NCBI GenBank assembly: GCA_002887195.1
Contig: PJAB01000545.1
Coordinates: 1-24,282, forward strand
Origin: Chrysochromulina parva
Taxonomy: Eukaryota > Haptophyta > Prymnesiales > Chrysochromulinaceae
DNA length: 24,282 nt
Direction of reading: 5' to 3'
Shown here piece by piece: positions 11,852 to 23,132 of this stretch. How positions within the stretch are numbered: the stretch's first letter is position 1; every line of letters starts with the position of its first letter. A program made the translations under genes and the position numbers. Below the pieces are notes generated by a model, which was not told the DNA's origin, did no database searches, and worked only from the letters and a program-made list of their open reading frames with translations.

Positions 11852-11997
11852 TGTCGGGGGGCTAGGTATCCGAAGTCGTGCTCGGACGCACGGGTGGCGA
11901 GCGGAAGGATAAACTGGCTGTTCACACCCCTGGACTGTGCACGCATCCAGCGCGAGCGAGGAGGGCGGAGGCTCCTTCTCTCCTTGAGCGCCGCCGC

Positions 11998-13068
11998 ATG
12001 GAGTTCCCGCCGAGCCAAGAATACTGCACGCCTGACGGCCGCCGCTGGCGAAAGTGCGCAGGTGCCGCCATCATCAACTCCGCCGGCCATCTTCTCGTGG
12101 GAGAGCGGATCAAGATTGCTGGCGCGTGGAACTGCCCGCAGGGCGGGATGGATGCAAGCTCCCGTGAGCACAGCAGGCCGGAGACGGTACTAATGGCGGC
12201 GGCGCGAGAGGCTTTCGAGGAGATGGGGCTAAAGGTGGGCGAGCACATAGTCCCCATCGCCGCCATGGACGACGAGCAGGCCGTGCGCTACGCCGCAGGT
12301 GGGTGGCTCGCGCAAGAGGGATATGCTGGGCAGCAGCTTCACTGGGCCTTGTTCCAAATGTGTGATGTGGTGGGCGATTCAGAGCCGTCCCACGTGTGCA
12401 CGCTAGGTGGTCTAGGAGGTGAGGAACCGGAATTCGCGCGCGTAGAGTGGCGACCCTTCGAGGCGGTCGTTGCGGCGATGTGGGCAAACAAGCGCGAGCC
12501 CTATGAGGCTCTCATGCGCTGGGCTTTGCCACTGCTCGAGCAGCGCGCACAGTTGGCGCGTGGCATCGATTTCACCGGCACCTGGCAGCGCCAAGCGACC
12601 CTCAACGACAACGTGGTCGAAGCCCTCGTCGCTCGGGGCCTCGATGTGCTGGCGGCTCAACGCGAGGCGAGCAAGCCGTACATTCAGGAATGGGCGCGTC
12701 ATGACAGCCTGCCACTGGGTGACTGGATGGTGACGACGCTGGACGTCGACGGGCAAGGCGCGTACCGGGCTGTAGTGTACGCCTTGGGTGACTGGGAGGA
12801 GACCCTCGAGCGCCCCTCGGTCCTCTATGGCAATGCATCTGCCATGCAGCCCGACGAGTTGCTCCGCCGGACGGGTTGGGTTGCGCTCCATCCTGAGGGT
12901 TTTGCACACACGACGTGGTCCTCGCGGGTCAATGGCGTGGCGGAGATCACGGCGCGGCGGCTGCGCCACGACGGCGCTATGGTGGTCGCCCGCACCTTTC
13001 TCGTTGATGGGAGGCGACCCGTCGTCTGTGAGGAGACCTTTCAGCGGCAGCCGCCCGATCCGAAGTGA
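11998..13068 (+). CDS. Nudix hydrolase fused to a FABP/lipocalin-like domain
   Basis: The protein has 356 residues. The start at 11998 has a strong eukaryotic context (GCCGCCGCATGG); the frame is open a further 40 codons upstream but without an ATG. Residues ~18-175 form a Nudix domain of the RppH/diadenosine-polyphosphate type: WNCPQGGMD (44-52) and the box REAFEEMGL (70-78), whose R70, E71, E74 and E75 are the expected metal-binding residues. Between the first Gly and E62 there are 11 residues instead of the usual 5, an insertion in the Nudix box. Residues ~190-356 begin DFTGTWQRQ and continue with alternating strands to MVVARTFLVDG, which suggests a fatty-acid-binding-protein or lipocalin-like barrel. 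Expected chemistry is cleavage of nucleoside diphosphate-linked substrates, possibly cap or alarmone nucleotides. It lies 146 bp downstream of the serine hydrolase on the same strand. Confidence 0.82.
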   Translation: MEFPPSQEYCTPDGRRWRKCAGAAIINSAGHLLVGERIKIAGAWNCPQGGMDASSREHSRPETVLMAAAREAFEEMGLKVGEHIVPIAAMDDEQAVRYAAGGWLAQEGYAGQQLHWALFQMCDVVGDSEPSHVCTLGGLGGEEPEFARVEWRPFEAVVAAMWANKREPYEALMRWALPLLEQRAQLARGIDFTGTWQRQATLNDNVVEALVARGLDVLAAQREASKPYIQEWARHDSLPLGDWMVTTLDVDGQGAYRAVVYALGDWEETLERPSVLYGNASAMQPDELLRRTGWVALHPEGFAHTTWSSRVNGVAEITARRLRHDGAMVVARTFLVDGRRPVVCEETFQRQPPDPK

Positions 13069-13553: not shown

Positions 13554-15473
13554 TCACGACGACTTGAGACTGTACAAAGTAAAGCTCGAGGTGGCGCCGG
13601 GCTGCAGCGTGAACGTAACGCGCCAGAGCCCGGGGCGGGGCCCACTAAAAGACCCCTCCTCCTCGATGAGTCGTAATGCCGTGCTCGCATAGATCGAGGC
13701 GTTGATCTCCCAACGGCGGCGCAGTGTGAACGTCCGGCTCAACAGGTGGACCTCGTTCCCGTCGCTAATGTTGCGCTCCATGCACACGCTCACGTCGGCA
13801 TCGCCATCATAGCTGCGTAGATATCCCACACGCAGAGCACGCGAGGCGTTGAGATGCGCTACAAAGGCCGCTCCTGACGTACGCGCCATAAACCCCCACT
13901 TGTCAGCCGCCTGGGCAGTCTTGGGAGCCTCGCGCCACGCCTTCTCTATGTAGTGCCCGTCAGCCGACCGGCGCAGCATCGTCCACTCCCAACGAGGCTC
14001 TGCAGCCGGCGCCGCTTCTGCATCGCCCAGCAGGTTTGGTACGGCGAGCCGCATCGTGCGGCTGCAATTCAAGTTCATCCAGCAGGCGTTGTTCGTAAAG
14101 TCCACAAGGGTGAGTGCCGGCTCGACGAGCTCGATGAGCCTCTCGTGACGGGGCGTGCCGCCCAACGTCTGTGCGTGTGTGGGTGGCAACGTACCTGCAT
14201 GCTCCATGAGCCGCGTGCGCTCGGCCGCTGTGAGGTTCTCGATCCGCTTGCGCTCTGCCTGCATGAGGGACACCAGAAAATATGCGCACATCTCGTGGCC
14301 GCGGCGTGACAGGTGCAAGTTATCCACGATGACCTCACGCCGACTCTCATCGACTCGACGGTGCGGTTTGAGCATGAGCGCGGACGTCCAATTGAGCGCG
14401 GACGTCCAAAAGGACGTTGGAATGCCGTAATGTTCCAACACGTCCTTGTGATATGGCCATCCTCCCCACACTCGCGAGGGTGGAGTCCGTTTCGGATCGA
14501 ACCACGCCGACTCAGTGTACAGGAGGGCGGGCGACGTGGGCGAGAGCAACAGCAGCTGGCGCACCAACGCCTCCGTGACAAGGCTGGCGCCGCCCAAGGA
14601 GCTGATGTACCGTTGATAAACTCGTGGATTCGCAACGGCGTTCAGGTCGTTGGTTGCAGTATCCACGATCACCAGGTCGGCGGGGTGTTCGCGGAAGGCA
14701 GGCAGCACGCGCGACTGAAAGTTATCCACGAAGAAGGCGCTGCCTCTGCCTGCGGCACACAGATTACTGAGTCGGTGGCCCGTTGGGCAGCACACGCTGC
14801 TGCGCGAGTTGAGGTATTCGACCAAGGCGTTGGCCCACGTATGATTGATGCCGGAGACGAGCTTGGATCGTATGCGCCTAAAGAAGGAATATAGTCCATG
14901 CAGGGTCGAATTTGCCAGGGTTCGGCCGGAGGCATACGACGCCCAAAGTTCGTGTTCGCGGGAGGTTTTGGACACGTTCAACGATTCAGCTGGAACCCAT
15001 CCCGCTCTGATGGCCGCAATCATGTGGTCCCTGGTTGGGTCTCCCTCGCCGCACGTGACGCTGCCGCCAATCGTCATTATGTGCAGACAGCAGTCTGCAC
15101 TATCCAGCTTTGCGAGCACCGGCGCCAGCCGTGAGAGCGCCCAGCCACCTTTCACCACGTGCGCAGCATCCATCACCTCGTCAGGGAGCATGGTGTGGGC
15201 ATCGATCGCTGAACCGGGTCTACCGAAATACTCCAAGGCCTGCTGATGCGTGCCGAGCGGGCTGCTGCTCATCGCAGACACCGCGGGGGGAGCCGTGCCG
15301 GTAACCATTCTCGCGAAGAGCACAGGAACGGTGAGGGGTGTGAAGCTGCTATTAGATGAAGCACACAATTTCGCGTTGCGTACATACCGTACGCGCGCTA
15401 GGCGCTGCCACATCGTGACCTCGAGCGGCACATCGCCGGTCATTTTGCTGAGGACTTTTCTGATTCTGCACAT
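13554..15473 (-). CDS. SGNH/GDSL-like hydrolase, probably secretory (639 aa)
   Basis: This single-exon protein of 639 residues carries the SGNH blocks in order. Block I is MTIGGSVTCGEG (133-144) with S138 as the likely nucleophile. Block III is VDTATNDLN (270-278) with N275. Block V is VDNLHLSRRGH (383-393) with D384 and H387. The family hydrolyses ester bonds of lipids or acetylated sugars. Many N-glycosylation sequons (NSS, NST, NHT, NWT, NLT, NCS, NAS, NIS) and numerous Cys point to the secretory pathway, but no classical signal peptide is obvious at Met1; it may begin later or upstream. The C-terminal ~230 residues look like a beta-rich accessory region ending LQPGATSSFTLYSL. A short internal duplication gives WTSALNWTSAL (about 14375-14410). 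Divergent with the next SGNH gene, 85 bp away. Confidence 0.75.
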   Translation of the reverse strand: MCRIRKVLSKMTGDVPLEVTMWQRLARVRYVRNAKLCASSNSSFTPLTVPVLFARMVTGTAPPAVSAMSSSPLGTHQQALEYFGRPGSAIDAHTMLPDEVMDAAHVVKGGWALSRLAPVLAKLDSADCCLHIMTIGGSVTCGEGDPTRDHMIAAIRAGWVPAESLNVSKTSREHELWASYASGRTLANSTLHGLYSFFRRIRSKLVSGINHTWANALVEYLNSRSSVCCPTGHRLSNLCAAGRGSAFFVDNFQSRVLPAFREHPADLVIVDTATNDLNAVANPRVYQRYISSLGGASLVTEALVRQLLLLSPTSPALLYTESAWFDPKRTPPSRVWGGWPYHKDVLEHYGIPTSFWTSALNWTSALMLKPHRRVDESRREVIVDNLHLSRRGHEMCAYFLVSLMQAERKRIENLTAAERTRLMEHAGTLPPTHAQTLGGTPRHERLIELVEPALTLVDFTNNACWMNLNCSRTMRLAVPNLLGDAEAAPAAEPRWEWTMLRRSADGHYIEKAWREAPKTAQAADKWGFMARTSGAAFVAHLNASRALRVGYLRSYDGDADVSVCMERNISDGNEVHLLSRTFTLRRRWEINASIYASTALRLIEEEGSFSGPRPGLWRVTFTLQPGATSSFTLYSLKSS

Positions 15474-15558: not shown

Positions 15559-17394
15559 ATGAGTTCGGCAGATGTGGAGTGGTACCGCAGCCTCGAAGCG
15601 TCGTTCGTAGCTCCAAGCAACGCCTCCTTCAGCACTTGGCCAGACACCCGTCACGAGAGCAGCGCGCATCGCCAAACATCACGTCTGCTGCGGCTTGCGC
15701 AGGCCGGTAAGAACGTGACAATCACTTTGACGGGCGGCTCATCGAGCGCCGCTCGTGAGAGTTTTGCGTATCACTTTGGTCGCCAGCTGGCAGACGCGCT
15801 CAGCCCAAGAGAGAGGGGTGGCAACTGCACGATTGACGCCAGCTCGAGCACGTGGCGCTGTCCAGTTGCTGGGCGCTTCCCCGGACAATTGGTCGAGATC
15901 GTACCCGCCGCAAATGGGCACACGGGGACTGACTTTGCGGCGCTGTTGATGGACGCTCTTGTCCCGCAGCGCACCGACATCCTAGTTTGGGAGTATGTCA
16001 TCAACGACTGGTCGACGCAGCTACTCAACCCTCGCTTTACGGACAACGCGCTTGATCTTTACTTGCGGAGAGCACTGGCAATCAATCCACGCATGGTCTT
16101 CGTCTTCGTGCACTTATGGGTCCCACTCGCTGCCGGGTGCTGGCCCCAATGCGTCATGGGCGGCGGGCCCAAGTTTATGTACGAAGCTGTCACCTCCACA
16201 CTGGAGCGGAACTACCAAGACAGGGGTCTCGACTGGACGTCGATCGACTTCAACGACATCGCGACGCAGCACTACGTGGCTCATCGAGGGAAGCTCAAGC
16301 TGGTCAACGAGACGCACGCCATGTTTTCCGACAAGCAGCATCCGAACCAGAGGACGCACCGCATCATAGGAAGCGTGGTCTGGCAGCACTTTCGTCCTTT
16401 CGTGCTCAACACAAAAAGAGAGGTCACTGCCAATGCCGGCACTGTCATGGACCATGCGCCGGTGGAGAATGTACCTCTGCCGATGCCCCCGACGGGGCTG
16501 CCCGGGGTCTCGAATATGTCAAACGCGTCGGTGGCGGCACGGATGATGTGGCGCTTCCTCTCAAAGCCGGGGCAAGTGCATTCGTGGACGCACTCGCTCC
16601 CCCACAATGGCGACTCTGCCGAGTATGTCTCGTACGGGCTTGCAGGATCACGCTACGCGCAGCCGGGTGACCGGGGCGTGCAGAGCAGCGCTGGGTCGAC
16701 ATTGATCAAGGTGGCCATCGAGGCCGCCGCGTCACGCTCTGACTCTATGCGATATGCACGGCTGCCCCTGTGTAACGGAGCGACCGGCTTCCTTCGCCAC
16801 TCGCTGCAATTCCAAGTGGCCTCGAAACGGCACGGGCACCAAGTGGCCTCGGACCCTCAAACGCCGCGTTTCGTCGGCATCAACTTTGTTGCCAGCCAGG
16901 GCCGCTCACTAGCACCAAAGGCGGCCGCGGAAGACATGGACAGAGGGCTGCTAAACCTGACCCTCGAGTATGTCTGCCAGGCGAGTCCAACGGCGGGTGG
17001 AAACGAAGCTGGCTCAACGACGGCCGGCGACTACCAGCGCAATCAGGGGCGAACTTGCTTCGCGCCGATGGCATCAAGTATGCTTGTCCCGGGCAGCATC
17101 GAGCTGGCCGACCTGGCGGAAGAACGCAACGTAACTACGGTTGCCGTCGACTTGAGCAGTATAGGGGCTTCCGCTCTCCACCGCAAACTGAGACCCACGA
17201 GTCCCGATGACCGCCGAACAGGCTTTGCTGTGCTACTACGAGGGATTCACGCTCCTCAAAATTACTTTGAGCTGCCTGACTCGCGCGTAGCATGCGGACC
17301 TGAGTGCACGGATCCCATTGAGGTCTCTATTCGCGTGTGCCAGCGGACGCTTGAGGGAGCCGCCCAAGGGCTCGGTGCAGTCTTGTTCATATGA
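15559..17394 (+). CDS. Second SGNH-like hydrolase with C-terminal accessory domain (611 aa)
   Basis: This single-exon protein has a different SGNH subtype from its neighbour. Block I is TLTGGSSSA (57-65), likely nucleophile S61. Block III is VWEYVINDWS (143-152) with N149. Block V is SDKQHPNQRTH (257-267) with D258 and H261. The catalytic part spans about 45-280; residues 330-611 form a long, probably beta-rich domain with paired Cys (CNGATGF, CQAS, CFAP, CGPEC). Sequons NAS, NVT, NCT, NET, NMS and NLT suggest glycosylation, yet the N-terminus MSSADVEWYRSLE is not a signal peptide, so a first exon may be missing. Likely substrate is an ester on a polysaccharide or lipid; not determinable here. 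It converges with the TIR gene. Confidence 0.72.
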   Translation: MSSADVEWYRSLEASFVAPSNASFSTWPDTRHESSAHRQTSRLLRLAQAGKNVTITLTGGSSSAARESFAYHFGRQLADALSPRERGGNCTIDASSSTWRCPVAGRFPGQLVEIVPAANGHTGTDFAALLMDALVPQRTDILVWEYVINDWSTQLLNPRFTDNALDLYLRRALAINPRMVFVFVHLWVPLAAGCWPQCVMGGGPKFMYEAVTSTLERNYQDRGLDWTSIDFNDIATQHYVAHRGKLKLVNETHAMFSDKQHPNQRTHRIIGSVVWQHFRPFVLNTKREVTANAGTVMDHAPVENVPLPMPPTGLPGVSNMSNASVAARMMWRFLSKPGQVHSWTHSLPHNGDSAEYVSYGLAGSRYAQPGDRGVQSSAGSTLIKVAIEAAASRSDSMRYARLPLCNGATGFLRHSLQFQVASKRHGHQVASDPQTPRFVGINFVASQGRSLAPKAAAEDMDRGLLNLTLEYVCQASPTAGGNEAGSTTAGDYQRNQGRTCFAPMASSMLVPGSIELADLAEERNVTTVAVDLSSIGASALHRKLRPTSPDDRRTGFAVLLRGIHAPQNYFELPDSRVACGPECTDPIEVSIRVCQRTLEGAAQGLGAVLFI

Positions 17395-17583: not shown

Positions 17584-20500
17584 TCAGGCGTCCTCGACTT
17601 TGTAGGCCTGGTCGGGGCCGAACAACTGCTCCCAAGAGCTCATGTCGTCGTTGAGGAATCCGTTGCGGTATCCTCGCGGTGCCAGCTGGAATTTGATTAA
17701 GTCGACCCTGGGCGAGACCTCGATCCACCCCTTGGCACCCTGCTCCGCCATCGGGCCCACCTCCTCGAGGAGCTTGTCCTTGGTGGCGAAGTGGGCGGAC
17801 ATTTTGGGGTCGGTCGCGAACAGAGCACCGCGCTTGTTGCCGAGTGAGATGGCCATGGTGCCCAGGCCTGGGTTCTTGTTGATCTGTGGCTGCTGGAACG
17901 CGCCCGGCCGCACGCCAGCGGCGACCTGGATGTTCTTGAGGATTGCGAAGGCATGCGCGCCCGCGTCTTGCATCGTGCGCTCACCCGCGGTGAAACGATC
18001 CTTGGCACAGATGTCGCCGCCCGCGTAGATGTGGCCGAGGTTGGGGTGATTGAGCTGTTGCGTATTCTTGGTCCTGATGAATCCCTGATCGTCCATCACG
18101 CTCGCGAACGCACTGTCGCTGCGCGGGTCCGTGAGGAGCCGGCTATTGGGTGTGTAGCCCGTCGCCCAAAAGACGCGCGCGTTTGGCGTGCCGACGGTGA
18201 CGCCGTCCTTCGTGACGGGTCGACCGGACTCGTCGGCGTGAGTAACTTCCTTGGAGTAGTTGACCGCGATGCCGTCCTCCTCGGCGCACGCCTTCACAAG
18301 GGTACTCGCGCCGGGCACGCGTGGCAGGCACTGGGGGCCTCGCGTGATGATCTCGACGGCCTTGTCCGGGAAGAAGGCTTTGATGTCGAACGCTAGCTCA
18401 CATCCGACGACACCGCCGCCCACGACGGTGATGGCGGGGGCATCCTTGATGCGCTGGCGCTCGAGGGCGAAGCTCTGCTTGCGCGCGGCGATCGAGGTGC
18501 CCTCCGTCTTGATGTCCGACGTGTACCTCGTCCCCGTGCAGATCACGAGGTAGTCGTACGGCACAACGCGCGAGGCGACGCCGGAGGAGGTGCCAACGAG
18601 GACGTGGTCTCTGCGGACCGCGCTCGCCCAGCCGACGATGAGCTCGCCCTTGCCGCCCATCACATCGACATGGTTGTAGCACGACACGTCCCACAGGCCA
18701 GCCTGCTCCGCATGCTCGTCAGCGATCAGCCGCAGCACGTTGGGTGTGTACTCGAAGAACTCCTTGGTGTCGACGAGCGTCACGTGGAAGGCCTCTGTCT
18801 GGATGCCCTTGCCGCGCGTCATCTGGTGCGCGACTATCACGCCGCACGGGCCGCCGCCGAGTATGACTACACGCTTCTTGGTGGTTACGTCGGCGGGCTG
18901 TTTCTCTCTCTTGATCGCCGTCCCCGCCGCCGCCTTGTACATCTCCGTGCGCATCGCCTCGACGGCCGAAAGGAGGAGCGCCTCCACGTGCGGCCGATCG
19001 GCCTTGAAGGCCGCCGCCACCTCCATCGCGCCGGCGCTCGCGCTGATGCCCGACGCATTGGGCAGGAGGCCGTAAGCGGCATCCATCGAAGCGTAGGCCT
19101 TGAGGTCGTTCGACGCCGCGAGGGCCGCGCCGCCATTCAGGCCGGCGAGGGCATCCTCGAGCGTGCGCAGGGCCTTGGAGATGAGGAAGGCGCGCTCGGC
19201 CTTGTCGGCCGCTGCGAGGCCGCCCGATTGCTTGCCGAGGAGGGACGCGTGGCGGCGGAGTGACTTGGACTGGTCGTGGTCGCGAAGGATGGACTCGAGG
19301 GTAAGGGCGTCCGCATCGCGCCGCTGGCTCTGCGAGAGGATCGACGCCGCCGCCGTCGCCGCCGCCGCCGCCGCCGCCGCCGCCGAGTCGACCGAGCTCG
19401 CCTCCGGTGTGGCCGGTGTGGCCGGCGCGCTCTCGGCGGCCTTGTCGCCCGATTTGGTAATGTCGCCCGATTTGGTAACCACCTGGATTGGGTCGCCGAC
19501 CTCGCGCCCTTTGATGAGCGTCTCCTGCTTGCGCTTCACCGCGCGGCCCTTGACCTGGAACGTGAACTGGCCCGTCGCGAGCGCCTTCCGCACCGCCGAC
19601 TCGTCCTCCTCGCCCTCGTCCTCGTCCTCCTCGTTGGCTTCGATGATCTGCTTGCGCACGTCGGCGAAGGTGGTCGCGCCGCCGACGAGGGCGAGCCCGC
19701 CATCGCCGGCCTCATCGACGACGACGGGGACGCACTTCTCAGCGTCAGCTCCGCCCGACAGCGCGATCATCGCTTCGACCGTCGCCTTGACCGACGTCTG
19801 TGCGAACAGCGTCGCGAACGTCGTCGCCGTGACCATCGCGCCCGCGTCCCCGAGCGCATCGCGCACGCCGAGGGCCTTGGCGATCGTGGACTCGACGCTG
19901 CCGAAGCTGGAGCCGCAGGCTTGGGCGAGCGAGGCCTTGAGCATCGCCCACGACACCGTCGCCCCACCGCCCGCCGCCGACCACACCCCCCTGGCCTCGC
20001 TCTCGACCGACGAGATAGCCGGCGGCGGGCCGAGCTTCTTGCATAGGGCGTCGACAAAGGGATTGAAGTACGAGCGTGTGTGCTCGACGAGCTGGGCGGG
20101 TGGGAAGACCTTGGCGGCGGCCTCGCGGACGTGGATGGTCACGTCCTCTACCTTGATCGTCACCGGCACGTCCGACAGCGACGGGAACTGCGCGCCATTC
20201 GCCCCCCACGTCGACCCGTCGACGTGGATGAAGAGGATGGTCACGCCGTGGCGGACTGCCTCGACAAACTCGAGGCAGCACCAGGCCGAGGCAAAGTAGG
20301 CGGGCGTGAGGAAGACGACGAGCGTCTGCGTGTCGCGCACAGCCAGCTTCAGCGAGGGCAGCTCGATCAGGTCGTTCCGGTCGATGAAGGCGCGGTAGCC
20401 GAAATCCGAGAGCCGGTCGTGCACGCGCGCCACAATGTCCTGCGCCTCCGAGCGCTTATGGGAGAGGAAGGCGTCGTAGCGGATGGCGCGCTCTCCCAGG

Positions 20501-21288
20501 AGGAAGTCTGTCGACGTCTCCCGAGGCCGCCTCCCGGCGGACGATGCCTCACCGGGCCCCCCCAGACGCTTCCCAAGGTTCTCAAGGAACGCGTCCAGGT
20601 ACGCGTCCATGTGGTCGAGCGCGATCGTGTGACCGAAGACGGCCGCTGCGGCGTCGCGCGGCTTGATGAGGCGGCCCTCGTCGGTCTGCGCGGTCTCGGG
20701 CACGTCGGTGAGCGCGGGGAACGGCATCCCTCGCCACGACGACCCCTCGACAGACACGGGAAGCACCTCCACGCCGTTGATCACGGCCTCGCAGAATTCG
20801 GCGCAGCAGGCCGGCGAGTCAAAGTACGTCTGGGAGATGAAGCTGACCACGCGGCGGGAGTCGCGGATGGCCTGCTTCTGCGCGTCGGGCTCCTTGCGCG
20901 GATTCGGAATCTTGTATCCCGCCGCTCTCAGATGATCGCGCACCCTCTTCGCCAGCGCGGTCTCCGCCGGCGCCGCGCTCACAAACGTGTCCCATTGCGC
21001 CTTCCGCAGATCGCTCTCCCTGATGCGCTCGGTGTACGACTTTATCAGATCGTCCCCTTTGATAGGCGGCGACTCCGCATACTTGGCACCGGGAGGGCTT
21101 GAGGACCCGCAGCCCATGATGACGGCCGCCAAGATGCAGATGAGCGCGACCACAACGGTGATGGCCAGCCCCTCTTCGTTTGTCAATATGGGAGGAGGGG
21201 GCGGTGGTTGGCCCCAGACGAAGTCTTCCACGAGCGACATCAGCGACGCGGGAGGAGGACTGGGCGGAGCCCATTGAACCCAGTACAT
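17584..21288 (-). CDS. Membrane-anchored TIR-TIR-FAD/NAD(P)H oxidoreductase fusion (1234 aa)
   Basis: One uninterrupted ORF. Domain order: Pro-rich N-terminus; a single hydrophobic segment at ~41-59 (LAITVVVALICILAAVIMG); TIR 1 at ~98-240 (WDTFVSAA, candidate catalytic E164 in CCAEF); TIR 2 at ~269-420 (YDAFLSHKRSE, E340 in WCCLEF); an unassigned helical region ~430-510; a possible ubiquitin-like module ~518-605 (TFADVRKQI...FTFQVKGRAVKRKQE); an Ala-rich linker and helices ~630-790; and an FSP1/AIFM2-like flavoprotein at ~805-1165. The last has FAD-binding GGGPCG (811-816), VICTGTRY, NAD(P)H-binding GGGVVG (957-962) and IYAGGD (1087-1092). Known TIR enzymes cleave NAD+, and FSP1-type enzymes oxidise NAD(P)H to reduce quinones. 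Placing both on one chain is the striking point. The overall function is inferred as NAD-linked signalling or cell death. The domain calls are strong, except the 430-610 region. Confidence 0.85.
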   Translation of the reverse strand: MYWVQWAPPSPPPASLMSLVEDFVWGQPPPPPPILTNEEGLAITVVVALICILAAVIMGCGSSSPPGAKYAESPPIKGDDLIKSYTERIRESDLRKAQWDTFVSAAPAETALAKRVRDHLRAAGYKIPNPRKEPDAQKQAIRDSRRVVSFISQTYFDSPACCAEFCEAVINGVEVLPVSVEGSSWRGMPFPALTDVPETAQTDEGRLIKPRDAAAAVFGHTIALDHMDAYLDAFLENLGKRLGGPGEASSAGRRPRETSTDFLLGERAIRYDAFLSHKRSEAQDIVARVHDRLSDFGYRAFIDRNDLIELPSLKLAVRDTQTLVVFLTPAYFASAWCCLEFVEAVRHGVTILFIHVDGSTWGANGAQFPSLSDVPVTIKVEDVTIHVREAAAKVFPPAQLVEHTRSYFNPFVDALCKKLGPPPAISSVESEARGVWSAAGGGATVSWAMLKASLAQACGSSFGSVESTIAKALGVRDALGDAGAMVTATTFATLFAQTSVKATVEAMIALSGGADAEKCVPVVVDEAGDGGLALVGGATTFADVRKQIIEANEEDEDEGEEDESAVRKALATGQFTFQVKGRAVKRKQETLIKGREVGDPIQVVTKSGDITKSGDKAAESAPATPATPEASSVDSAAAAAAAAATAAASILSQSQRRDADALTLESILRDHDQSKSLRRHASLLGKQSGGLAAADKAERAFLISKALRTLEDALAGLNGGAALAASNDLKAYASMDAAYGLLPNASGISASAGAMEVAAAFKADRPHVEALLLSAVEAMRTEMYKAAAGTAIKREKQPADVTTKKRVVILGGGPCGVIVAHQMTRGKGIQTEAFHVTLVDTKEFFEYTPNVLRLIADEHAEQAGLWDVSCYNHVDVMGGKGELIVGWASAVRRDHVLVGTSSGVASRVVPYDYLVICTGTRYTSDIKTEGTSIAARKQSFALERQRIKDAPAITVVGGGVVGCELAFDIKAFFPDKAVEIITRGPQCLPRVPGASTLVKACAEEDGIAVNYSKEVTHADESGRPVTKDGVTVGTPNARVFWATGYTPNSRLLTDPRSDSAFASVMDDQGFIRTKNTQQLNHPNLGHIYAGGDICAKDRFTAGERTMQDAGAHAFAILKNIQVAAGVRPGAFQQPQINKNPGLGTMAISLGNKRGALFATDPKMSAHFATKDKLLEEVGPMAEQGAKGWIEVSPRVDLIKFQLAPRGYRNGFLNDDMSSWEQLFGPDQAYKVEDA
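19349..19384. repeat. (CCG)n array in the TIR-oxidoreductase gene
   Basis: A GCC/CGC repeat encodes the Ala run at about residues 636-648, separating the signalling half from the helical linker. An 18-bp tandem duplication near 19448-19483 encodes TKSGDITKSGDK just beside it. Confidence 0.85.
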
Positions 21289-21488
21289 ACGGCGCCGATC
21301 GATTGTGTGAAGAAGGAAGCGCTAGCGTTCACTGACCAATTTTCCTGTGAAAGCCAAGCGTTACTCCGACGGAGTGTCGAATCGAATCGGGGTCGAATTG
21401 GTGTCGCCGCTTCTTTCGCGTTGTGACCGTGTTCGAGCTCGCTTTCTCGTCGCGCTGCGTGGAAAAGAAGCAGGCAACGGCCGTCCCG
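21289..21488. promoter_or_regulatory. Divergent promoter region between TIR fusion and PIH1 gene (200 bp)
   Basis: This is the gap between the ATG at 21288 (-) and the ATG at 21489 (+). The plus frame is open from at least 21423 but without an ATG, so the last ~65 bp are probably 5' UTR. No clear core element. Confidence 0.4.
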
Positions 21489-22436
21489 ATGCCCTCGCCT
21501 TCTGCTTCCGCCACGCCGACCGCCGGCTTCGTGGTGAAGCTGAAGGCGCCGGACGGCACGCGGCACTACGCCAACATCTGCTCGCATCCCGCCATCCAGC
21601 GGCCGCTCAATCCCGCCGACCAGGAGGTCGAGGACGGCGTGCTCCGCACGCGCGGCATCGACAACCTGCGGGTGCCGTTGCTCCTCTCGCCGGTGCGCAC
21701 GGTGGCGCTCGGCGGCGACGACGACGAGGAGGCCGTGTGCTTCGACGTCATGTTCAACAGCGCCGTGCTCGACGTCGCGCTCCCGGGCGGCGCTTCCGAG
21801 GACGCCAACAGCGCGGCAGCGGCGCATGGCATCGACCCCGCGCTCAGCAAGATGGTGCGCATGCGCCTCGTGGAGCTGGCGCTGTCGCACGCGGAGCAGG
21901 ACCTCGGGTACAAGCTCGGCCGCGCGTACACGCTGCCCAAGAACGCATCCTACAAGGGCGGTGTCGGCGGCGGGCGCCAGCCGGTGCCGTGCCAGGCGCT
22001 GCGCAACCTCATCTCCGCCCAGGAGGCGGCGGAGCTGCAGGCGCAGCAGCACGCGGCGGCGGGCCCTTGGAAATCGAAGCGCGAGGCGGCGGGCCAGACG
22101 ACGCGCGCCAAGATCGAGGAGCTCGCCTCGTTTGAGGACGATCGGCTCGAGGAGCGCAGGCAGCAGCCTCTGATTAAGAAGGGCTTCCTCAGCGCGCAAT
22201 CGGCCAAGGGACGCCATCTCTACCCTAACGGCTCGGAGGAGGGCATGCTGTACGGCGACGTCAAGGTGGCGGGCGACCCGCTCGGGTACCTGCCCAAGGG
22301 GCTGCGCAGCCGCGTCAAGGTCGTCGACCCCGCCACCACCACCCCTGAACAGCAGCAACAGATGATGGAGGACTACGCCAACGGATCGGGACCCAGGCGG
22401 CCGAGTGCCACAGCGGGCGCCGCCAATAGCACCAAG

Positions 22437-22471
<35 letters not shown>

Positions 22472-23132
22472 GGGGAATCTCAACAAGGGCTTTCTCAACG
22501 GCGCGGGCGGCTCCCTCTACCCGAACGGGTCTGCCGAGTCCGGCGGAGGCAAGCCAAGCGCGGAGGCTGCCCTCAACGAACTGATCCCCTCGACGGCCGA
22601 GCTGGAGCGCATTGCTTCCGAGACAGATTCAGACACGTTCCTCAAGGAGCTCTCCGGGATGGCCTCGCTCCTAGGGCTCGGCAGCTCGGGGGGGCCGTCA
22701 GCATGGCCCCCGAGCGACGCCGGCGGCCTCGGCGGCCTCACCAGCGGGGATCTCTTCAGCGGGGAAGGCCCCGTCCATGCCGCCAAACGGGAGTCGCTCC
22801 GTCAGCACTACGAGACTGGCTACAGCGGCAACAGCAGCGGCGGCGGCGGCGCGGCGAGCGCCAGCGCGCTTAGCGACGAGCGCCGTCCCGAGCACGAGCT
22901 GCTCGACAGTGGCGTCGATGAGCCAGTGGTCCTCAAAGTGAGCTTGCCCGCGCTCGAGTCCCTCGAGGGTGTCGAGGTCGATATCTCCGAGGACCATTTC
23001 CGGCTCGTCGCGCCGAATGCGTACCGGCTCGAGCTGAGCTGGCCGCGCCCGATGGACGCCGACGCCGCCAAGGCCAAGTTCCTTAAGAAGAGCCACACCC
23101 TGCAGGTGACGGTGCCGCCCGCCGCCGTCTAG
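21489..23132 (+). CDS. PIH1 domain protein with C-terminal CS-like domain (dynein-assembly/R2TP type)
   Basis: The protein has 547 residues from the first ATG. Residues ~12-175 form a PIH1 domain (FVVKLKAPDG, ANICSHPAIQRP, VPLLLSPVR, CFDVMFNSAVL, and the helix VRMRLVELALSHAEQD). Residues ~475-547 (VVLKVSLPALESLEG...YRLELSWP...LQVTVP) look like a CS/alpha-crystallin-type domain. Such proteins are HSP90 cofactors; PIH1D1 works in R2TP, while DNAAF2/MOT48-type members pre-assemble axonemal dyneins in the cytoplasm. A KGFL...LYPNGS motif occurs twice (231-249 and 333-348), separated by a poly-Gly run from a GGC array. The C-terminal CS domain favours the dynein-assembly group, but I cannot choose the orthologue. 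Its presence suggests a flagellated life stage. Confidence 0.82.
22438..22471. repeat. (GGC)n array in the PIH1 gene, poly-Gly
   Basis: About 11 GGC units encode the Gly run between the two KGFL...LYPNGS motifs. Confidence 0.9.

Follow-up and report, generated by a model that had tools for sequence, protein, structure and literature searches.

Two TIR domains and an FSP1-like flavoprotein on one conserved chain of Chrysochromulina parva: a possible redox-coupled TIR enzyme

TIR domains of the immune type are known to destroy nicotinamide adenine dinucleotide (NAD+). A stretch of 24,282 nucleotides from the alga Chrysochromulina parva (contig PJAB01000545.1 of assembly GCA_002887195.1), hereafter the window, carries a gene in which two TIR domains are joined through a conserved middle region to a flavoprotein resembling FSP1 (AIFM2). 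This join is real, conserved and, as far as sequence tells, made within one continuous gene; its product may tentatively be read as a membrane-anchored, redox-coupled TIR enzyme. The open frame runs from the ATG at 21288 to the stop at 17584 on the reverse strand (17584..21288; 1234 amino acids plus stop), and all features of the protein given below lie on that strand. A preliminary description of the window had proposed a single uninterrupted frame, and the frame is indeed open over 1234 codons.

Known TIR NADases (NAD+-cleaving enzymes) are gated by sensor domains, namely ARM, NLR and STING, according to a survey of the family (PMC9153377). Joins of TIR domains to sensors are already known; what is new here is a partner that is itself a redox enzyme working on the nucleotide of the TIRs. 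The preliminary description knew of no protein with this layout, and in the literature searched for a TIR-flavoprotein fusion none was described among the matches listed; the word oxidoreductase is absent from the main text of two TIR surveys (PMC7075850, PMC9153377). A redox partner of this sort would make TIR action depend directly on redox state, and would bring the TIR/SARM1 and FSP1/ferroptosis fields of cell death together in one algal polypeptide.

A single conserved gene

The whole protein was searched against about 5.8 billion proteins, returning 13 relatives; a TIR-less paralogue added six and the relative P0012 another six, giving 25 distinct sequences. Chains pairing a TIR model with Pyr_redox_2, the architecture that the preliminary description had proposed to look for, make up 14 of these 25 by their precomputed Pfam annotation. 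Nine of them were found with the window protein (P0002, P0003, P0004, P0006, P0007, P0009, P0012, P0013 and P0014) and are 36-95% identical to it across the aligned part, and P0022-P0026 are 73-87% identical to P0012. Among the other relatives, P0005 and P0008 carry the TIRs and break off within the flavoprotein or ahead of it, P0010 and P0011 start within the second TIR, P0016 duplicates the TIR-less paralogue (99%), P0017, P0018 and P0027 start beyond the TIRs on short contigs, and P0019-P0021 have the flavoprotein and no TIR model.

The order TIR1-TIR2-middle-flavoprotein is repeated in the alignment of relatives, the middle being conserved too. Third-position guanine-plus-cytosine content is 0.85-0.91 across TIR1, TIR2, middle and flavoprotein, and 0.74-0.76 in residues 1-95. 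Compared with the paralogue on contig C23, differences over 592 codons concentrate at the third position (204, 166 and 325 at positions one, two and three). Shared domain order, codon composition and position-three differences are more than chance. That the frame merges two adjacent genes, or is an artefact of chimeric assembly, is very improbable: the relatives come largely from environmental assemblies with short contigs and the single frame is known from genomic sequence alone, but the recurrence of both domains in relatives as distant as 36% identity, the conserved middle part and the even codon composition already weigh against it.

Besides the two-TIR kind to which the window protein belongs, a second kind has one TIR (P0012, P0013, P0014, P0022-P0026), preceded either by a hydrophobic helix (P0012, P0013) or by MGAGAS or MGGGAS and a stretch that is weakly SAM-like. 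The third form is the TIR-less paralogue itself, P0015, a frame of 677 amino acids in the same genome (L015:1261-3294, contig C23), where MGCGAS at Met31 is followed by a helical module and an FSP1-like flavoprotein; it is 54% identical to window residues 631-1231. In the flavoprotein tree P0015 falls inside a ten-row clade of two-TIR proteins (support 96/99), its exact placement within the clade being unsettled, and with outgroup branches of great length (2 to 7.2) the root is unsure. The simpler account of P0015 is that it lost the TIR cassette. Another Pyr_redox_2 frame without a TIR, L023:1659-4994 on contig C1035, is 32% identical to window residues 799-974.

TIR domains, flavoprotein and membrane anchor

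Two TIR domains had been claimed in the preliminary description, and searches with hidden Markov models, which it had suggested, bear this out. The whole protein scores 73.0 bits against Pfam TIR_2 (cut-off 28) and 38.3 bits against Pfam TIR (cut-off 21.3), each in two stretches, and the TIRs scored singly reach 41.3 and 37.7 bits, both above the TIR_2 cut-off; the TIR fold is supported in each. Its proposed catalytic glutamates are likewise well placed: E164 closes the motif CCAE and E340 the motif CCLE, and both TIRs have Glu at the place of SARM1 E642 and RUN1 E100 in helix alpha-C. In the following, conservation is given for the rows that cover a position among 24 examined, unless another number is named.

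TIR2 (residues 268-423; 20020..20487) has the features of an intact TIR of the SARM1 and plant NADase type and would be expected to have NADase activity. Its BB-loop region holds DRNDL (residues 303-307; 20368..20382), in which Asp303 and Arg304 are kept in 17/17 rows. The alpha-C motif WCCLE (residues 336-340; 20269..20283) contains the candidate catalytic E340, which is Glu in 19/19 rows and aligns with the Glu of RUN1 WCLDE (E100 by our own count, with an offset of 19); the Trp is replaced by Ala in P0006 and P0007. C337, three residues upstream of E340, does not vary in either of two alignments, of 14 and 17 rows. TIR1 (residues 96-250; 20539..21003) is degenerate. Its candidate catalytic E164 (20797..20799) is Glu in 9/9 rows, and it has neither a recognisable DRxxL BB-loop motif nor the SHKR of TIR2; the BB-loop stretch is 3 residues shorter than that of TIR2 in the window protein, and a further 4-8 residues are missing in P0006, P0007 and P0009. 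TIR1 being degenerate, the two domains more probably make up a single asymmetric pair than two NADases working independently; the folds and glutamates put forward in the preliminary description are supported in both.

The flavoprotein (residues 804-1234; 17587..18879) is identified by Pfam Pyr_redox_2, at 96.3 bits (cut-off 26.1) over residues 806-1100, and by a profile match to FSP1. It contains, exactly as previously described, GGGPCG (811-816; 18841..18858) as the first, flavin adenine dinucleotide (FAD) binding motif, with G811-G813, C815 and G816 nearly invariant, and GGGVVG (957-962; 18403..18420) as the second, NAD(P)H-binding one. With a profile of 8 flavoprotein sequences, FSP1 is the closest solved relative by sequence (2.1e-22), as the FSP1/AIFM2 assignment had held, followed by NoxA-3 (1.9e-11) among 48 sequences at E <= 0.001; further matches include CoA-disulfide reductases and a Staphylococcus aureus NADH dehydrogenase-like protein (9.2e-9). 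Rather than an enzyme of the NAD(P)H oxidase type, as it was labelled earlier, the C-terminal part should be an FSP1-like NAD(P)H:acceptor reductase, which would oxidize NAD(P)H.

By alignment, FSP1 D41, K118, E156 and D285 correspond to D840, K927, E964 and D1092, and E160 to D968. D840 is kept in 23/23 and K927 in 22/22 rows; E964 (18397..18399) is Glu in 21/21, and D1092 (18013..18015), equivalent to a FAD contact, is Asp in 18/19. Mutation E156A is reported to remove most or all activity of FSP1 (PMC10516921, PMC10896247). Several nicotinamide- and quinone-site residues of FSP1 are changed in the window protein. The alignment ends at FSP1 residue 337, before K355, with L330 replaced by Ile and F328 by Met, and residues 800-1234 contain no CX2-4C, that is, no redox-active Cys pair of such spacing.

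The choice between NADH and NADPH was considered at the pocket where His174-Ser175-Gln176 of human FSP1 become Thr982-Arg983-Gly984. FSP1 is described as using NADH and NADPH alike, and at its His174 place NDH-2 and Ndi1 have a Glu tied to the choice of NADH (PMC10516921); R208, S175 and Q176 are named as contacts of the 2'-phosphate (PMC10896247). R983 (18340..18342), at the place of S175 and adjoining the residue linked to this choice, is Arg in 11, Lys in 2, Gly in 8 and Ala in 1 of 22 rows. Arg983 would suit NADPH, whereas Glu1014 in place of R208 speaks otherwise, and either NADH or NADPH would be possible.

A membrane segment had also been claimed, and the predicted hydrophobic helix of residues 41-59 (21112..21168) is the strongest such stretch of the protein, with a Kyte-Doolittle mean of 2.98 over 19 residues. 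It lies largely in an N-terminal extension (residues 1-57; 21118..21288) that precedes the internal Met58 of MGCGSS (residues 58-63; 21100..21117), a possible myristoylation and palmitoylation site if used as the start. Several relatives begin at the Met58 place, with MGC..S in P0004, P0008 and P0009 and with MGAGAS or MGGGAS in P0014 and P0022-P0026; MGC..S is what myristoylated and palmitoylated N-termini usually look like. In P0003 and P0005 Met58 is replaced by Lys, so the upstream start must be used there. Identity in the extension is 52/56 with P0002, 52/57 with P0003 and 52/56 with P0005, against 531/541, 489/538 and 488/541 in the part that follows, meaning equal conservation in P0003 and P0005 and slightly lower conservation in P0002. 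Because of this conservation, the Lys at Met58 and the MGC..S starts elsewhere, a helix is the probable anchor in the group of the window protein, and a lipid in other relatives.

The middle region (residues 425-800) is conserved and mostly folded in the predicted model m9243903798f2, and is thus more than a linker. A helical domain is predicted at residues 430-511 (19756..20001), followed by a possible ubiquitin-like domain at 517-608 (19465..19740) and a helical module with an Ala-rich lead at 633-787 (18928..19392), the last being retained in P0015, which aligns from residue 632.

Four known systems come closest to the protein. Relative to SARM1/TIR-1 it has tandem TIRs, another kind of membrane anchor, and a flavoprotein instead of the allosteric ARM site as its nucleotide-handling module; no ARM or SAM model was among the 10 families matched at E <= 1, as an ARM-SAM-SAM-TIR architecture would have. 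Plant TIR-NLR and TIR-only proteins (RUN1, Roq1, RPP1, AtTIR) give the best sequence matches to the TIR2 profile and share the WCxxE motif, whereas the window protein has no NB-ARC or LRR model in Pfam, two TIRs per chain and a redox enzyme attached. FSP1 is the closest solved relative of residues 806-1154, with equivalents of E156 and three FAD contacts kept, and is likewise anchored at its N-terminus, where it carries a myristoylation motif (PMC10516921). Unlike FSP1, the window protein is fused to TIRs and a middle region, has other pocket residues changed, and has a longer C-terminal region that does not align. TIR2 also scores against models of the Thoeris proteins ThcB4 and ThsB (ThcB4 4.3e-11, 42.3 bits, far under the cut-off of 220), but these models are named for anti-phage systems, and the likeness is one of TIR domains, with no flavoprotein match.

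Possible modes of action

The reading that we favour, somewhat short of an even chance, is that of a membrane-anchored, redox-coupled TIR enzyme. At the membrane, the flavoprotein would use NAD(P)H to reduce a quinone or another acceptor. TIR1, a relative of TIR2 that retains the catalytic Glu and has lost the BB-loop motif, would form with TIR2 a built-in asymmetric pair, in which the active site probably joins the TIR2 BB-loop to a Glu pocket; pairing of TIRs is described as necessary in plants (PMC9153377). The conserved middle would link the TIR pair to the flavoprotein and probably gate it, the TIRs being kept apart or together according to how far the flavoprotein is reduced or whether it binds NAD(P)H. 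Once released, they would cleave NAD(P)+, itself a likely product of NAD(P)H oxidation by the flavoprotein; a stress or immune death response would follow, either from nucleotide signals or because NAD(P) runs out. In SARM1, NAD+ and NADP+ are reported to be cleaved and NADH is not (PMC7282519). The flavoprotein may either feed NAD(P)+ to the TIRs or gate the pair through its flavin as ARM gates the TIRs of SARM1; gating with possible feeding is preferred. Weighing against a single fused gene, four of the 14 relatives with both TIR and Pyr_redox_2 (P0007, P0009, P0014 and P0026) lose the match before the end of the flavoprotein in our reading of the alignment, and P0011, on a contig of 96 kb, starts within TIR2 and later loses the frame; introns, assembly frameshifts or decay could be the causes.

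It is rather unlikely that the TIRs are scaffolds and not enzymes, which oligomerize or recruit other TIR proteins and thereby cluster a membrane-bound FSP1-like antioxidant reductase, for instance against lipid peroxidation. The TIR-less P0015, which joins flavoprotein, helical module and MGCGAS in the same genome, makes the reductase look like the core and the TIRs like an add-on. The degenerate TIR1 points the same way, as do the adaptor TIRs of Myd88 and Mal, which act by assembly (PMC9153377).

Also unlikely is that the TIR part mainly makes a nucleotide messenger, of the cyclic ADP-ribose (cADPR) type or a 2',3'-cyclic nucleoside monophosphate (2',3'-cNMP), with the flavoprotein as an NAD(P)H or redox sensor without turnover. 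A Cys conserved in alpha-C close to the Glu is important when plant TIRs synthesize 2',3'-cNMP (PMC9153377), and the invariant C337 is read here as its equivalent; the altered nicotinamide- and quinone-site residues would also suit a sensor. Against a sensor alone, the core residues D840, K927, E964 and D1092 persist, which argues for turnover.

A bolder version of redox coupling, to which we give a similarly low probability, would make the protein a self-contained destroyer of the NAD(P)(H) pool. The FSP1-like module would make NAD(P)+ and an intramolecular, asymmetric TIR1:TIR2 site would cleave it, the supply of acceptor at the membrane being the trigger of an algal death or immune enzyme. 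If true, no earlier case is known to us in which one chain couples pyridine-nucleotide redox chemistry to TIR cleavage.

Other TIR genes and the gene neighbourhood

The genome searched (45 Mb, 2199 contigs) contains 18 TIR_2 matches, two of which are the window's own; 17 are above the cut-off, two of them only with in-frame neighbours. For the light-harvesting family PF00504, 58 matches were found, exons counted apart, which points to an alga. Armadillo-like repeats and a TIR share one frame at L024:4366-8103 (contig C57), a combination resembling SARM1, here in an alga (PF00514 21.2 bits, cut-off 20.6; TIR_2 58 bits), with a second partial TIR match near the end. At L025:10-3702 (contig C1210) a helicase-like part, where ResIII passes its cut-off while DEAD and Schlafen group 3 helicase fall short, is followed by a C-terminal TIR. 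At L029:4239-7934 (contig C1148) a PfkB kinase and ankyrin repeats occur together with a TIR match that stays below the cut-off (18.7 bits, cut-off 28).

Within the window, the TIR gene has a NUDIX-domain frame (11878-13068, forward strand) at a distance of roughly 4.5 kb; ADP-ribose is a substrate of some NUDIX enzymes, but neighbourhood is weak evidence in an alga. A PIH1-domain frame (21423-23132, forward strand) and the TIR gene are arranged head to head, the listed starts being 135 bases apart. In addition, two divergent frames (13554-15473, reverse strand, and 15559-17394, forward strand) show likeness to GDSL lipases below the cut-off and are perhaps duplicates.

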